NCBI GenBank assembly: GCA_947594425.1
Contig: CANQED010000020.1
Span: forward strand, 1-36,339
DNA: 36,339 nucleotides
Source of the DNA: an uncultured Ruminiclostridium sp.
GTDB lineage: Bacteria; Bacillota; Clostridia; Oscillospirales; Ruminococcaceae
Reading direction: 5' to 3'
A program made the translations under genes and the position numbers. Under the pieces are notes generated by a model, which saw only the letters and a program-made list of their open reading frames with translations, had not been told where the DNA came from and ran no database searches. Shown here piece by piece: positions 1 through 4,970 of this stretch. How positions within the stretch are numbered: position 1 is the first letter of the stretch; each line of letters begins with the position of its first letter.

Positions 1-114
1 TTTGAGCGTTTTGACAGTCAAGGATATTCCATTATTGTAAAAGGAATGGAAGAAGATAAAAGAATAAATGACTTATCGATAAAAGTTGATTATTTGTTGT
101 CTAAAAAATCTTAG
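1..114 (+). CDS. 3' end of an unidentified gene (partial)
   Basis: An open frame runs from the first base of the window to a TAG at 112-114 and encodes the last 37 residues of a protein (ending DYLLSKKS). The frame is open from the edge and its AT-rich codon use matches the neighbouring glycan genes, so it is probably the C-terminus of a real gene that starts outside the window. I do not recognise the family. The next start codon lies 49 bases downstream, so it may belong to the same plus-strand glycan operon. Confidence 0.5.
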   Translation, partial: FERFDSQGYSIIVKGMEEDKRINDLSIKVDYLLSKKS

Positions 115-163
115 CAGAGTGACTTGGTTTAGTCAAATTTAAGGTTATAAAGGTGAAATTAAC

Positions 164-349
164 ATGAAAATCATAGGCGTGATCCCTGCCCGCTACAAGT
201 CCACTCGCTTTCCGGGAAAGCCGCTCGCGGACATTTGCGGCATAAACCTCGCCGTCTATGACCCCGCCGCCGATAAGCTAGTCGACGCGATAGGGTACGA
301 TAGGCATAACGCCGAGGGTAGGTTCGTGAGGAAAAATTTAGACGGGTAG
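164..349 (+). pseudogene. Truncated chimeric kdsB-like ORF
   Basis: This 61-codon ORF begins with 26 residues identical to the N-terminus of the intact kdsB at 1151 (the nucleotide-binding PARYKSTRFPGKPL signature). After the Gly codon at 239-241 the similarity stops and an unrelated 35-residue tail follows (INLAVYDPAADKL...). The two 78-base copies differ at four sites, all synonymous third positions, so they were both translated and selected while diverging. The most likely history is a second kdsB-type gene whose body was deleted, fusing its 5' end to the 3' end of another gene. A weak ribosome binding site (AAAGGTGA) precedes the ATG. The product lacks nearly all of the cytidylyltransferase fold and is unlikely to be an enzyme. 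I do not recognise the tail. Its stop is followed at once by the AGGAGG site of the acetyltransferase gene. Confidence 0.7.
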
Positions 350-357
350 GAGGAAAT

Positions 358-1149
358 ATGATCGTCTTAAGCAAATCCATTAAATTAAAAGACGGCAAGA
401 CTGCCGTAACGGTAAGTGAAAGCCCTCAGCTCGGCACATGGGGGCTGCACAAAAGGACAGTTATCGAAGCGCCGGTATATTTGGGGCGAAGCCAAATCGA
501 TACCGGATACATAGGGGCATTCACCCAGATAAATATGCGTGCGGTGAAAGCGCCGACGACAAACAGCTGCATCGAATGTCAGAGCATCGGCAGATACTGT
601 TCTATAGCACACGCGGTAAATGTCGGCATGGGCGGGCATTCTACCACCTTTCTAAGCTCGTCGACGTTGTTTAAGTTCAATAAAAACGCCGAGGCTTTTA
701 CGCCGTTTTTAGAAAATAGAAATTTCGACTGGGAAAATTCCATGAGAGAGAAAAATATATCTTCTTGGAAAAAGCCCCTACCGAAAATAGGCAACGATGT
801 ATGGATAGGCTTTGGAGCCACCGTGCTCAACGGCGTCACTATCGGCGACGGGGCGATAATAGCCGCGGGCGCGGTGGTCACAAAGGACGTCCCGCCATAT
901 ACAATTGTCGGAGGAAGTCCAGCACGTGTAATACGCCAAAGATTTTCCGATGCTATTGTGGAGCGTCTGCTCAAATTAAAATGGTGGAAGTACGGCCCCG
1001 ATATTTTGTGCGGTCTTGACATCTCAAGCCCGGAAAACTGCATCGATGAGCTTGAGGCCCGCATTCTTGCGGGGGGGGGTACAGAGTATAAGCCGCCTTG
1101 TGTTATTTTGGATATTGAAAATAATGATATAAAATTGGAGGAACATTAA
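358..1149 (+). CDS. CatB/XAT-like hexapeptide-repeat acetyltransferase
   Basis: A 263-residue left-handed beta-helix acyltransferase of the xenobiotic/CatB type. Isoleucine-patch hexapeptides run from about residue 45 to 200, including [22 protein letters not shown] and [18 protein letters not shown]. His94 in GGHSTTFLS sits where the catalytic His of this family lies, and the [11 protein letters not shown] signature closes the helix. It probably transfers an acetyl group to a nucleotide- or lipid-linked sugar for surface glycan decoration; the substrate cannot be read. A strong AGGAGG lies 5-10 bases before ATG 358. The C-terminus is unusual: a nine-G tract at 1071-1079 encodes AGGG after the family fold, followed by a 25-residue tail. 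The stop is one base before the kdsB ATG, so the genes are tightly packed. A change in tract length would replace that tail. Confidence 0.88.
1071..1079 (+). repeat. Poly-G tract G9 in acetyltransferase 3' end
   Basis: Nine consecutive Gs flanked as TTGC-G9-TACAG. With nine Gs the ORF runs to 1149, next to the kdsB start. With ten it would stop at 1089-1091, and with eight at 1130-1132. The tract lies beyond the conserved catalytic domain. Homopolymer G tracts of this size are classical slipped-strand phase-variation sites in bacterial glycan loci; that function here is inferred. Confidence 0.85.
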
Positions 1150-1150
1150 A

Positions 1151-1900
1151 ATGAAAATCATAGGCGTGATCCCTGCCCGCTACAAGTCCACCCGCTTTCC
1201 GGGAAAGCCGCTTGCGGATATCTGCGGCAAGCCTATGGTATGGTGGGTGTACCGGCAGGCGAAAAAGGTCAAGGAGCTCGACGAGGTATATGTCGCAACC
1301 GACGATGAGCGCATAGAGAGCGCGTGCAGGGAGTTGGGGGTAAATGTGGTGATGACGTCGGAGGAGCATCCCACCGGAACAGACAGGATAGGCGAGGTAG
1401 CGAGAAAAATACCCGCTGACCTATATGTTAATATTCAGGGAGATGAGCCCATGCTTGAGCCCGAAATCATAAGGTCGGCAATTTTGCCGTTCTATGATGA
1501 TCCAAATCTTCAAGTCACAAATCTTATGGCTGAAATAACAAATCCGGTAGATGTTGTTAATTTCACTGTACCAAAGGTTATCGCTAACGCTGAGGGCATT
1601 GGGATCTACCTGACAAGGACTACCGCTCCGTATCCCAAAGGGAGTATTAGATACAAGTATTATAGGCAGGTTTGCGTTTACGGTTTTAAGCCCGAAGCGT
1701 TACAATTTTATTGCAGCTCTCCCCGCGGTAAAATTGAAGAAATAGAGGATATAGAGATATTGCGTTTTATCGAAGCGGGTTACCGCGTGAAATATATCGA
1801 GGTCAAAAGCAATTCAATTGCCGTAGATACATATAAAGACCTTGAAAAAGTACGAGAAATGCTAAAATATTCATGCGGGGGGGGTACAGTTATAAACTGA
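1151..1900 (+). CDS. kdsB: KdsB-like CMP-ketodeoxysugar cytidylyltransferase
   Basis: A 249-residue protein with the full layout of 3-deoxy-manno-octulosonate cytidylyltransferase: N-terminal PARYKSTRFPGKPLADICG, the EEHPTGTDRIGEVA segment, NIQGDEPMLEP with metal- and nucleotide-binding residues, and a C-terminal VDTYKDLEKVREML. The family couples CTP to a ketodeoxy sugar acid to give the CMP-sugar donor and PPi in the cytosol. In a Gram-positive host the substrate need not be Kdo; a related ulosonic acid for a capsule or glycoprotein is more likely. GGAGGAACATTAAA precedes the ATG. After Tyr242 the gene carries an eight-G tract (1877-1884) that encodes CGGG and then ends in TVIN. One more G would extend the ORF by 12 codons, to a TAA overlapping the next ATG. 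The first 78 bases have a diverged copy at 164-241. Confidence 0.85.
   Translation: MKIIGVIPARYKSTRFPGKPLADICGKPMVWWVYRQAKKVKELDEVYVATDDERIESACRELGVNVVMTSEEHPTGTDRIGEVARKIPADLYVNIQGDEPMLEPEIIRSAILPFYDDPNLQVTNLMAEITNPVDVVNFTVPKVIANAEGIGIYLTRTTAPYPKGSIRYKYYRQVCVYGFKPEALQFYCSSPRGKIEEIEDIEILRFIEAGYRVKYIEVKSNSIAVDTYKDLEKVREMLKYSCGGGTVIN
1877..1884 (+). repeat. Poly-G tract G8 in kdsB 3' end
   Basis: Eight Gs flanked as ATGC-G8-TACAG, nearly the same flanks as the first tract. With eight Gs the stop is the TGA at 1898-1900, leaving 34 bases before the next gene. With nine the frame stays open to a TAA at 1933-1935, which overlaps the ATG at 1935 as TAATG. With seven it stops after VQLY. Confidence 0.85.
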
Positions 1901-1934
1901 TACCCAATGCAGCCTCTAAAAAGGAGGCTGCATA

Positions 1935-2636
1935 ATGAAAACTGTAGCAGTCGTACCGATGAAATTAAATAATTCTCGATTGCCGAACAAGAACACAAAA
2001 TCTTTTACCAACGGCAAGCCGTTATGTTCGTACATACTGAACACGCTGAAAAGTGTAAAATCGTTGGATGAGATATATGTTTATTGCAGCAATTCGGATA
2101 TTACAGCTTTTATTCCCGAGGGTGTAAAATACATAAAGCGCTCTGAAAAATTAGACAGAGATGTCACGAGCATGAATGAAGTGTTAAAAGCATTTGTAAA
2201 TGATGTTGACGCGGATATTTATGTTTTGGCGCATGCTACGGCGCCGTTTATCTCACCCGAAAAAATACAGGACGGATTAAACGCTGTACTTAGCGGGCAA
2301 TACGATTCTTCTTTTGCTGTTAAAAAAATTCAAGATTTTATGTGGCGTAATAATAAGCCGCTAAATTATGATCTTGACAATATACCGAGAACTCAAGACC
2401 TTGAGCCGTATTTTATCGAAACAAGCGGATTTTATATTTTTAGAAAAAATATCGTTGCCGAAATGAATCGCCGCATAGGTAATGCGCCGTATATGGTGAC
2501 AGTAAGCGAAGTCGAGAGTATCGATATTGATGAACAGGAAGATTTTGAGATAGCCGACGCGGTTTACTCAAAAATTATCGTGCCTCGTTGTGAAAATGCA
2601 CAAAACGCAAATTCCACAACGGGGGGGGTATTTTAA
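1935..2636 (+). CDS. NeuA-like CMP-sugar cytidylyltransferase, copy 1
   Basis: A 233-residue acylneuraminate-cytidylyltransferase-type protein. It has the N-terminal nucleotide-binding segment VVPMKLNNSRLPNKNTKSF, a central AHATAPFIS and the C-terminal metal-binding region SIDIDEQEDFEIADAVY. The family transfers CMP to nonulosonic or other keto-deoxy sugar acids. AAGGAGG at 1920-1926 drives the ATG. It is paralogous to the next gene, with similar motifs along the whole length. It differs by a C-terminal extension (PRCENAQNANSTTGGVF) containing the third G tract at 2621-2628. With nine Gs the extension would be 17 residues longer and end in a TGA overlapping the next ATG. The exact sugar substrate is unknown. 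Two NeuA-like enzymes plus KdsB suggest more than one CMP-sugar, or alternative specificities under phase control. Confidence 0.85.
   Translation: MKTVAVVPMKLNNSRLPNKNTKSFTNGKPLCSYILNTLKSVKSLDEIYVYCSNSDITAFIPEGVKYIKRSEKLDRDVTSMNEVLKAFVNDVDADIYVLAHATAPFISPEKIQDGLNAVLSGQYDSSFAVKKIQDFMWRNNKPLNYDLDNIPRTQDLEPYFIETSGFYIFRKNIVAEMNRRIGNAPYMVTVSEVESIDIDEQEDFEIADAVYSKIIVPRCENAQNANSTTGGVF
2621..2628 (+). repeat. Poly-G tract G8 in cytidylyltransferase 1 3' end
   Basis: Eight Gs, flanked by CAAC and TATTTTAAAA. With eight the ORF stops at 2634-2636, 58 bases before the next gene's ATG at 2695. With nine it stays open to a TGA at 2696-2698, giving an ATGA overlap with that start. With seven it stops at the TGA at 2641-2643. 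The tract lies after the conserved domain. Confidence 0.85.
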
Positions 2637-2694
2637 AAGCTGATTTGTGCATAGTGCACTATTTCTCCAACTCTACGAGAGGAGGAATAGCGGC

Positions 2695-3351
2695 ATGAAA
2701 ACTGTAGCAGTCATACCCATAAAGATGAATAATGTTCGCACCCCGGGGAAAAATACCAAGCCTTTCAGCGACGGTACGCCTTTGATAACGTTAATTCAAT
2801 CCGCCCTTTTAAAATCAAGCGAAATAGATGAAATATATGTGTATTGCAGTAATGAGGCGATAAAACAGTATTTGTTGGACGGGGTCAAATACATAAAAAG
2901 AGATGAACGTTACGATACGCCGCAGGCAGATGTTATTGAAATGATGAAAGTGTTTTCTGATATGGTCGATGCCGATATATATGTTCAGGCGCATGCCACA
3001 ACGCCTTTTTTGGCGGCAGAAAGCATCGATAATGCCGTCGCAATGGTCAAATCCGGTAAAAACGATTCTGCGTTTGCTGTTGTAAAGGTACAGGATTTTT
3101 TGTGGAAGGACGGCAGTCCTATCAATTATATGCCCGAGAGAATACCTCGTACTCAGGATATGGAGCCTATGTGGAAAGAAACTACGGGGCTGTATATCTA
3201 TACAAAAACGGTTATAAATTCTCATCACAGGCGTATAGGATACCGACCTTATTTAGCGGAGGTAAACGAAATCGAGGCTTTGGATATAGATACTCCTCTG
3301 GATTTTGAAATAGCTGACGCGGTGTACAACTACCTTAAAAAGGAGAAATAA
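2695..3351 (+). CDS. NeuA-like CMP-sugar cytidylyltransferase, copy 2
   Basis: A 218-residue paralog of the preceding gene. It shares MKTVAV, KMNNVRTPGKNTKPF, a central AHATTPFLA, IPRTQDMEP and the C-terminal ALDIDTPLDFEIADAVY. I place the start at ATG 2695, behind AGAGGAGGAATAGCGGC and at the same MKTVAV as its paralog. An in-frame upstream ATG at 2647 would add 16 residues unlike the family. There is no G tract or C-terminal extension; it ends just after the last helix (YNYLKKEK). The stop is two bases before the aldolase start, so the two are probably translated together. It likely activates the product of the downstream aldolase with CTP; the sugar identity is unknown. Confidence 0.85.
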   Translation: MKTVAVIPIKMNNVRTPGKNTKPFSDGTPLITLIQSALLKSSEIDEIYVYCSNEAIKQYLLDGVKYIKRDERYDTPQADVIEMMKVFSDMVDADIYVQAHATTPFLAAESIDNAVAMVKSGKNDSAFAVVKVQDFLWKDGSPINYMPERIPRTQDMEPMWKETTGLYIYTKTVINSHHRRIGYRPYLAEVNEIEALDIDTPLDFEIADAVYNYLKKEK

Positions 3352-3353
3352 AA

Positions 3354-4943
3354 ATGATAAGTGTGCTTGACTGCACCCTGCGTGACGGCGGGTATGTGAA
3401 TAACTGGGAATTTGGCTCTAAGACTATTTCTCATATAGCAGAAAAGCTGTGTTCTTCACAGGTTGAGATGATAGAATGCGGATTTTTGAGCCAAACAAAA
3501 AAAGCGACAGTCGGGCAAAGTATATTTAAAAATATATCGGACGCGGAAAAATATTTTGAAAAATGCTCGGATAATTTAGCCCTTATGATAAATTGCGGAG
3601 AATACGCTCCGCAGGACATTCAACCCTATGAGGGCGGAAAGATAAAAACAATACGCATAGCATTTCATAAGCACCAGCGAGATGAGGCTCAAAAGCTTTG
3701 CGTTGCGTTAAAAGAAAAAGGCTATGACGTCTTTTTTCAGCCAATGTATACAATAGGATATAAAGACATAGAGCTTATCTCCCTTATAGACTGGGCTAAC
3801 TCGACCCGTCCAAAAGCCTTTTACATAGTGGACAGCTTTGGCACTATGAGCAAAAGCGACCTCCTCCGTATGTTTTACCTTGTCGACAACAATTTATCAA
3901 AGGATATAAAGTTAGGCTTTCATTCGCATAACAATCTTCAGCTTTCGTTCTCAAATGCGCAGGAGCTTGCCGAGCTGAATACCAAGCGAGAGCTTATTAT
4001 AGATTCGTCCGTGTTCGGTATGGGCAGAGGCGCGGGAAACCTTTGTACCGAGCTATTGACCCAGTTTATCAACGATAATATTGAGGACAAATACGACCTT
4101 ATCCCCATACTTGAGATAATGGACGAATACATTATGCCTATTTATACAATGCACCCGTGGGGGTATTCTGTCCCATACTGTTTGGCTGCAATGAATGATT
4201 GCCACCCAAACTATGCTACATGGCTTATAGCAAAACAAACGATATATGTTAGGGATATCAACGCCATAATAAAAAGCATTCCCGAAGAAAGAAAGCACCT
4301 CTACGACGAAAATTTGATAAGCACCCTCTATCTTCAATACCAGCAGCGCAGCGTCGACGACGCTGACGTGATAAAGAAGATAAGCGCGCTTTGCAAGGGC
4401 AGATCGGTGCTTATTCTTGCCCCGGGGAAAAGCCTGCTGACCATGCAAAAGACCGTCGACGAGTACATAGCGCTGAATAACCCCGTGGTTTTCGCGATTA
4501 ATCACATCCCATCCCACTACAAGTGCGACAAGGTGTTTATCAGCAATCTTAAGCGGGTCAGGGGTATCGACGACGCCGCCGAGAAAATCAAGGACAAGCT
4601 TATTTTCACCTCTAACATAACCGACGATGGGGCGTATGATTTGGTAAATTATTCGGAATATCTTGTAAACGACCCCGTTATTTCCGACAATTCGGGACTA
4701 ATGCTGATAAATCTTTTTCGCAAGGCGGGAGTAAACGCGGTATCGCTGGCGGGGTACGACGGCTTTAAGTACGACGAAAACACGAATTATTTTGACAACC
4801 GAATGATAAACAATGTCCAGTACGAAAAGCAAAAGCAGGTAAACAACGCGATAATCGGCTATTTTAAGAAGATACGAAAGACTATGGACATAAGCTTTAT
4901 TACCCCCACAATTTACGACGGGGAGGAAGATGGGGGAGAATAG
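3354..4943 (+). CDS. HMGL-type aldolase fused to a C-terminal glycan-locus domain
   Basis: A 529-residue two-part protein. Residues 1-300 are a DRE-TIM metallolyase (HMG-CoA lyase / 4-hydroxy-2-oxovalerate aldolase type). It starts with LDCTLRDGGYVNNW, where Asp11 is the metal ligand, and has the HSHNN motif with His190 and His192. From about residue 347 a second domain begins with RSVLILAPGKSL and includes SLAGYDGF; it resembles the DUF115/MptE-like or Maf-type Rossmann domains of glycan loci, though this match is loose. The aldolase half could make or cleave a C-C bond to pyruvate, fitting synthesis of a 2-keto-3-deoxy sugar acid that the adjacent cytidylyltransferases then activate. AAGGAG precedes the ATG. 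It is the last gene of the plus-strand island and is followed by a hairpin. Confidence 0.82.
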   Translation: MISVLDCTLRDGGYVNNWEFGSKTISHIAEKLCSSQVEMIECGFLSQTKKATVGQSIFKNISDAEKYFEKCSDNLALMINCGEYAPQDIQPYEGGKIKTIRIAFHKHQRDEAQKLCVALKEKGYDVFFQPMYTIGYKDIELISLIDWANSTRPKAFYIVDSFGTMSKSDLLRMFYLVDNNLSKDIKLGFHSHNNLQLSFSNAQELAELNTKRELIIDSSVFGMGRGAGNLCTELLTQFINDNIEDKYDLIPILEIMDEYIMPIYTMHPWGYSVPYCLAAMNDCHPNYATWLIAKQTIYVRDINAIIKSIPEERKHLYDENLISTLYLQYQQRSVDDADVIKKISALCKGRSVLILAPGKSLLTMQKTVDEYIALNNPVVFAINHIPSHYKCDKVFISNLKRVRGIDDAAEKIKDKLIFTSNITDDGAYDLVNYSEYLVNDPVISDNSGLMLINLFRKAGVNAVSLAGYDGFKYDENTNYFDNRMINNVQYEKQKQVNNAIIGYFKKIRKTMDISFITPTIYDGEEDGGE

Positions 4944-4946
4944 CAA

Positions 4947-4970
4947 AAGAGCGCGGGTCACCGCGCTCTT
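4947..4970. terminator. Convergent hairpin between island and rSAM remnant
   Basis: A perfect 10-bp stem, AAGAGCGCGG / CCGCGCTCTT, with a GTCA loop. On the minus strand it is followed by TTGCT, giving a short T run, and overlaps the stop of the radical-SAM remnant. On the plus strand the T run is poor. It probably served the minus-strand gene and may also end the glycan operon. Confidence 0.6.

Follow-up and report, generated by a model that had tools for sequence, protein, structure and literature searches.

What can a slippery homopolymeric tract do when it lies so close to the end of a gene that a change in its length leaves the encoded enzyme nearly whole? The question is raised by a contig of an uncultured Ruminiclostridium sp. 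(CANQED010000020.1; all 36,339 bases, hereafter the window; whole genome, 2,604,253 bases), in which three consecutive genes, encoding a hexapeptide acyltransferase, the cytidylyltransferase KdsB and a NeuA-like cytidylyltransferase (neuA1), each carry a poly-G tract of eight or nine bases (G8 or G9) at the 3′ end. We propose that a gene-end tract of this kind is likely to be a phase-variable translational coupler, in which slippage within one gene (gene N) gates translation of the next (gene N+1). The reading frames, stop positions, predicted hairpins and their recurrence are read directly from the sequences.

Three consecutive glycan genes end in poly-G tracts

A run scan placed the tracts where an earlier note, made from the letters alone, had reported them, close to the 3′ ends of three glycan-type genes. 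The gene kinds named in the note (acetyltransferase, kdsB, NeuA-like) were right in kind, with matches to PF00132, to TIGR00466 and NF009905, and to CTP_transf_3, respectively. The three are the only G runs of at least six bases in the window, which holds two C runs of at least six, each of length six; that no other G or C run is so long, as the note had also remarked, therefore holds down to a threshold of seven bases. Calculated from coordinates, the tracts start at codon 238 of 263 in the acyltransferase gene, 243 of 249 in kdsB and 229 of 233 in neuA1. The features concerned are the following (ORF, open reading frame; MFE, minimum free energy).

358..1149, + strand: hexapeptide acyltransferase gene (ORF; PF00132), upstream member of candidate coupler 1
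1071..1079, + strand: poly-G tract 1 (G9), coupled class; stop TAA at 1147-1149, next ATG at 1151
1080..1150, + strand: linker 1, open in the coupled frame; Shine-Dalgarno hairpin not convincing (z 0.3)
1151..1900, + strand: kdsB, CMP-Kdo synthetase type (TIGR00466 and NF009905 above cut-offs), behind tract 1 and bearing tract 2
1877..1884, + strand: poly-G tract 2 (G8), uncoupled; stop TGA at 1898-1900, G9 class stop at TAATG 1933-1937
1907..1933, + strand: predicted 11-bp hairpin including the neuA1 Shine-Dalgarno AGGAGG (1922-1927); linker MFE -22.0, z -5.6
1935..2636, + strand: neuA1-like cytidylyltransferase gene (Pfam CTP_transf_3), behind tract 2 and bearing tract 3
2621..2628, + strand: poly-G tract 3 (G8), uncoupled; stop TAA at 2634-2636, G9 class stop at ATGA 2695-2698
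2659..2690, + strand: predicted hairpin including the neuA2 Shine-Dalgarno AGGAGG (2680-2685); linker MFE -19.9, z -2.3
2695..3351, + strand: neuA2-like cytidylyltransferase gene (ORF, Pfam), behind tract 3 and with no tract of its own
3354..4943, + strand: gene for an HMGL-like aldolase-domain protein, starting 2 nt past the neuA2 stop

Chance homopolymers were ruled out by shuffles and by genome-wide run lengths. Dinucleotide-preserving shuffles of the window held a mean of 0.55 G or C runs of at least eight bases (P of three or more = 0.017), and in none of 300 did three tracts of at least eight G (G8+) fall inside 1.6 kb. Across the genome there are 124 G or C runs of at least six bases, about 111 of them of exactly six, 5 of exactly seven and 8 of at least eight; by these counts, runs of at least eight form a class separate from shorter runs and well beyond the genomic background. 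That 3 of 8 randomly placed sites should cluster inside 1,560 nt has P = 5e-5.

Tract length sets where each gene stops

A length change by one at any of the three tracts leaves the enzyme nearly whole and moves its stop, and at all three, one length class (modulo 3) makes the upstream stop overlap or abut the next start. At its present G9, the acyltransferase gene stops one base ahead of the kdsB start. At G8, kdsB and neuA1 both stop early, leaving about 35-60 untranslated nt ahead of the next start; the G9 class would instead carry kdsB to TAATG on the neuA1 start and neuA1 to ATGA on the neuA2 start. The downstream Shine-Dalgarno is predicted to lie within a hairpin at the neuA1 and neuA2 linkers, and unconvincingly so at the kdsB linker. 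The present assembly thus reads as one in which kdsB is coupled and neuA1 and neuA2 are uncoupled. Two other kinds of element were looked for and rejected: internal promoters, of which none was apparent by eye behind the window tracts (a TTGACA-17-TATAAT arrangement occurs only at a tract on contig C1), and terminator hairpins, the window linkers being without a T tract.

In the mechanism that we envisage, gene N would be made almost completely at any tract length because the tract sits behind the catalytic fold. At the coupled length, the ribosome would cross the linker, unfold the hairpin hiding the next Shine-Dalgarno and terminate on the next start codon, where the same or a new ribosome would begin gene N+1. 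At other lengths it would meet a stop, usually within 20 nt past the tract and before the hairpin, and gene N+1 would remain mostly silent. Consecutive tracts would then form an ordered gate, with neuA2 and the HMGL-like gene, which is expected to follow neuA2 because of the 2-nt spacing, requiring tracts 2 and 3 both to be in the coupled class. If so, slippage would occur in the present strain, the downstream genes would depend on coupling and the outcome would be variation of surface glycans.

The same anatomy recurs in Clostridia and Treponema

We assembled 34 sites that can act as couplers from Clostridia and Treponema, mostly in glycan genes; a further three come from two species that share the genus of the window. 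They share an anatomy in which one length class reads through a linker of 45-110 nt and stops on the next start (ATGA, TAATG), the remaining classes mostly stop within 20 nt, and most linkers are predicted to form a hairpin that takes in the next Shine-Dalgarno.

In 23 of 32 couplers, neither of the other frames stays open beyond 20 nt, against 1.6 expected from shuffled linkers in which the Shine-Dalgarno region was kept (P about 3e-15, conditional on coupling), and in 58 of 63 cases the uncoupled stops fall ahead of the anti-Shine-Dalgarno arm. The Shine-Dalgarno pairs with the 5′ linker at 33 of 34 couplers versus 19 of 48 tracts outside ORFs. On average, swapping 5′ arms between loci weakened folding (MFE from -22.0 to -15.3, p 2e-6; unpaired probability, p 7e-4). 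At those of the 29 listed sites that have a good Shine-Dalgarno (22), its unpaired probability was 0.17, compared with 0.55 over 373 ordinary starts (p 9e-9), in a comparison whose fold window might include tract bases.

Such bases are excluded from a second comparison, in which the start was set by the pattern G8-N-GGAGG-N-ATG before stops or folding were examined; this gave 81 sites, 10 of which were dropped because the following ORF was shorter than 60 amino acids (aa). Coupling was possible at 13 of the 18 sites with an upstream ORF of at least 100 aa and at 19 of the 53 outside ORFs (Fisher p 0.008). Five of the 13 had been seen earlier (L156, L160, L271, L281 and L289), and four of the five failures are tracts inside long ORFs, as judged afterwards. 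Over the 71 sites, the median unpaired probability of the Shine-Dalgarno was 0.10 at gene ends compared with 0.59 outside ORFs (p 9e-7). Pattern searches found promoter-like hexamers spanning the tract at 24 of the 53 sites outside ORFs. The hairpin accompanies the kind of tract that needs gating, although both kinds follow poly-G.

As for frames alone, 27% of 1,865 control trials on the 373 ordinary starts passed the frame test. We compared this with 22 gene-end tracts that have a following gene, taken from tract surroundings in six genomes behind neuA1-related loci (all listed tract places for four genomes, part of them for two Treponema genomes). Automatic classification found one length class stopping at -6 to +1 of a listed start at 18 of the 22, two of them doubtful (the third tract of L215 and the second of L254); under the control's limits of -5 to +1, 17 of the 22 couple. 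Eight of the 22 tracts had been seen beforehand; of the remaining 14, coupling is possible at 10.

The device is patchy among relatives of neuA1: in 52 related loci taken from one-per-species genomes, a G or C run of at least seven occurs in 10 and a coupler in 6. Nor is the tract general in kdsB, as only 2 of the 120 relatives listed (of 6,153 matches) have GGG in the last 40 residues; the nearest relative, P0001 (84%), ends in RGGVQL, which matches another phase of the window tract. The pattern G8-linker-GGAGG-ATG was found in 27 of 391 genomes of the window's class, 20 of 146 in the genus of the Treponema genome G464 and 21 of 250 in the family of G462, and its reversed form in 3, 3 and 5 genomes of these sets, respectively; most matches are tracts outside ORFs and not couplers. 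In the window's genus, 4 of 71 genomes match, the present one included, and one of them (G053) is not a coupler by eye.

The earlier note had called a set of three such tracts unusual for a probable Gram-positive glycan operon. This is weakened by the promoter-like hexamers at tracts outside ORFs and by the presence of G8+ tracts in 53 of 60 genomes of the genus (the present one included), although per-genome counts of this kind are unsafe because some genomes of the genus (G019, G006) contain G runs of at least 18, some at contig ends, that are possibly poly-G sequencing artefacts.

Proteins joined by couplers

Pfam was run on 30 downstream and 20 upstream proteins of couplers outside the window, as well as on the window's own. 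By our sorting of the matches, 20 of the 30 downstream and 15 of the 20 upstream proteins are sugar-nucleotide or glycan enzymes, including cytidylyltransferases, nucleoside diphosphate (NDP)-sugar epimerases/dehydratases, glycosyltransferases, pyruvyl transferases, hexapeptide transferases, LicD and PIG-L. The remaining downstream proteins comprise two ATP-grasp and two HMGL-like proteins, DUF4422, a lactate/malate dehydrogenase, one match below the cut-off and three proteins without a family; upstream, there remain a GNAT acetyltransferase, a hydroxyacid dehydrogenase, a thiamine pyrophosphate enzyme, an MptE-like protein and one protein without a family. The two genes joined often belong to the same family, as in cytidylyltransferase, epimerase, glycosyltransferase and PglD-like pairs.

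Tract lengths differ between relatives and among phages

Length differences were seen only between relatives and among phages, the window species being represented by one assembly. The phases of the 34 couplers are mixed, with 14 in the coupled class and 20 not, as would be expected if neither state were fixed. An ortholog of the coupler on contig C2 of the present genome has G10 in the sibling species G035, and is coupled, compared with G8, uncoupled, here; the proteins are 84% identical over 321 aa and the linkers 92% identical, and the residues directly before the tract differ. Two Treponema contigs with 98% identity over 4.4 kb differ at a shared coupler, where one has G9 and the other G8. 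Among flank-similar tract pairs, 3 of 7 differ in length: one coupler, one paralog pair within a genome and one tract inside an ORF.

One pattern scan of a phage collection yielded 47 stretches. Of these, 36 can couple, a number inflated by the ATGA that the pattern demanded, and 34 have a hairpin; coupling, hairpin and two early stops occur together in 16. Coupler-like G tracts lie in gene chains at L366, L370, L327, L333, L350, L372, L359 and L361, some of them behind very short leader ORFs, and show natural length differences between related contigs. Of 8 groups of related phage tracts, 4 differ in length. Two phage contigs, from different metagenomes by name, share 1,251 identical nt upstream of the tract and 338 nt downstream of it, their sole difference being G9 versus G8.

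Other long tracts of the same genome

Five of the eight genome sites with runs of at least eight are at gene ends, two within ORFs and one in a promoter spacer, and all eight can be read as phase-variation devices. Those outside the window are the following.

Contig C2, locus L010: gene-end tract behind an NDP-sugar epimerase-family gene (PF01370)
Contig C32, locus L013: gene-end tract behind a cytidylyltransferase-like gene (PF02348)
Contig C3: tract inside a hexapeptide-acyltransferase-like gene, frame broken in the assembly (named from sequence alone)
Contig C4: tract inside an intact acyltransferase-like membrane-protein ORF (named from sequence alone)
L009:7865-7873 (G000 C1:116864-116872), minus strand: G9 filling a TTGACA-17-TATAAT spacer ahead of a 183-aa membrane-protein-like ORF

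The C1 tract would act as a phase switch of the promoter type.

Alternative explanations

Several points weigh against reading these sites as couplers. Linker 1 has no convincing hairpin, so translation of kdsB may be independent of the acyltransferase gene. The 34-site list was selected for couplability, which leaves only hairpins and early stops as independent tests, and includes L253 and L254, which are orthologs, as well as a weak case (the second tract of L254). Pairing of the Shine-Dalgarno with the 5′ linker was scored by a lenient criterion (pairing of 3 of the 6 bases in the MFE structure) that counts even linker 1 among the 33 couplers. In the arm swaps, the native 5′ arm was among the best three in just 6 of 32 loci. 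Misses occurred at L282 in the pattern-fixed set and at L198, L205, L218 and L224 in the automatic classification, and two of the three length classes couple at L010 and at the first tracts of L206 and L203. Four of the seven distinct flank-similar tract pairs are equal in length. Finally, the extension to phages is weaker because hairpins there occur at 7 of 8 gene-end tracts and almost as often, at 25 of 35, outside ORFs, and hence do not discriminate, perhaps owing to some tracts that stand behind very short leader ORFs.

The tracts might instead vary the tail of their own protein. Such C-terminal phase variation has been described for gene-end poly-G tracts of Helicobacter canadensis, whose lengths vary in reads (PMC2823697), and for 3′-end repeats of Neisseria gonorrhoeae (PMC5320596). 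Here too each tract lies at the 3′ end of its coding sequence, the frames end at different points, all three yield a near-full-length protein, and the changes of tail at the window tracts are real. The earlier note had taken placement at gene ends for a design different from the usual ON/OFF switch; this is supported, in that the next gene is apparently gated, and the placement itself has this precedent. We nonetheless consider own-tail variation an unlikely account of the present sites. By eye, the coupled tails share no protein sequence save for ends set by the Shine-Dalgarno or hairpin; the stops coincide with the next start; hidden Shine-Dalgarno sequences and early stops would be meaningless for a tail; and the G035 sibling pair keeps its linker while the residues just upstream of the tract differ. 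Table 2 of the H. canadensis study (PMC2823697) gives, for 5 of 8 genes, two frames of 0-5 aa and a third of 16-50 aa, the same signature of two short frames and one long that marks the couplers here. The authors of these studies consider variation of the own tail or fusion to the next coding sequence, whereas we propose control of the next gene. The main text of PMC2823697 contains no match to 'coupl', 'hairpin', 'overlap' or 'start codon', and in the available text of PMC5320596 neither 'downstream gene' nor 'overlap' occurs, the sole match to 'coupl' being an author name. By analogy, some of the H. canadensis genes may themselves be couplers.

A second alternative is transcriptional polarity, by which uncoupled lengths would expose untranslated RNA and Rho or an intrinsic terminator would end transcription before gene N+1; the next gene would be switched in the same way, but at a different level. 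The untranslated stretches at tracts 2 and 3 would suit this. However, the predicted hairpins reach the start codon without a T tract, and the Shine-Dalgarno itself is among their paired bases, a feature for which a terminator would have no use; we regard polarity as improbable. Least credible is that chance or fixed tracts, without switching, lie near the ends of simply overlapping operon genes: overlapping starts are frequent in operons and over a quarter of control trials pass the frame test, but the long runs are a separate, clustered class, all eight sites can be read as switches, and the arrangement recurs in Clostridia and Treponema, with length differences between near-identical copies.

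Relation to known switches

Both slipped-strand switching and translational coupling are well established. At the poly-G contingency loci in glycan genes of Campylobacter, Helicobacter and Neisseria, the gene or promoter that contains the tract is the one disrupted. The proposed couplers are like them in their G8+ tracts, glycan genes and mixed phases, and the earlier note's comparison of the window tracts to a phase-variation device is supported. They differ in that the own gene is spared and the next apparently gated; the classic types also occur in the same genome. In the translational coupling of ribosomal-protein and other operons, a stop overlaps a start and a Shine-Dalgarno hairpin is opened by upstream translation. 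The overlap is shared by one length class at each window tract, and a hairpin is predicted at two of the three window linkers, but coupling is fixed there and would be set by a slippery tract in the present case.

A phase-variable translational coupler was not found described in a limited literature search. In its accessible part, PMC13190605 mentions that pilC varies in phase through poly-G and, separately, that other genes are translationally coupled, and the sole match of a limited search on gut, Firmicutes and Lachnospiraceae, PMC6437147, concerns Campylobacter and AB5 toxins. The combination of slippery tract, two early stops and hidden Shine-Dalgarno might tentatively be called new to print.

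We think it probable that poly-G, two early stops, an open linker and a Shine-Dalgarno hairpin together constitute a distinct and widely shared device, which would turn operons into ordered chains of stochastic gates. The gene-gene junction would then be a third site of slippery-tract action besides the promoter spacer and the reading frame. Both the chains of sugar-nucleotide paralogs in Clostridia and Treponema and the gene chains of phages would choose combinations in a fixed order, suggesting order-dependent glycan variation in both bacterial groups. Much that is now classed as C-terminal phase variation would instead control the following gene, with the prediction that the phase-variable gene is misnamed wherever such a tract ends a gene. 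The signature (a frame that ends on the next start, early stops in the other two and a hairpin over the Shine-Dalgarno) could be used by phasome software to find such sites.

Further features of the window and of related genomes

The neuA1 product matches CTP_transf_3 and is PseF-like, but its sugar cannot be assigned because the score lies far under the PseF cut-off. Two further features precede the acyltransferase gene.

1..342, + strand: leader region, 94% identical by blastn to a leader on contig C32, which carries a paralogous cluster
164..349, + strand: 61-aa chimeric ORF (from sequence), the first 26 kdsB codons joined in frame to an unrelated tail

Both contigs break at the shared leader (window 1-342; L013, C32 reverse complement 1-341), and its position ahead of both paralogous glycan clusters possibly marks a repeated cassette site. 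In the chimeric ORF, the match to PF02348 is restricted to residues 4-31 and the tail has no assigned family; C32 holds a similar fusion. At the end of the HMGL-like gene, 31 nt (4939-4969) are identical to a stretch of C32.

In the Treponema genomes G464 and G465, GTTA-G8..10-TAAC recurs (L228, L233, L238, L239, L243 and L248), mostly shortly before a long ORF, and is possibly a family of dispersed G-tract elements. Genome G426 contains several near-identical G-tract promoters (CTTGACAAAC-G9-TGATATAAT), the copies at L142 and L166 preceding ORFs of at least 300 aa.

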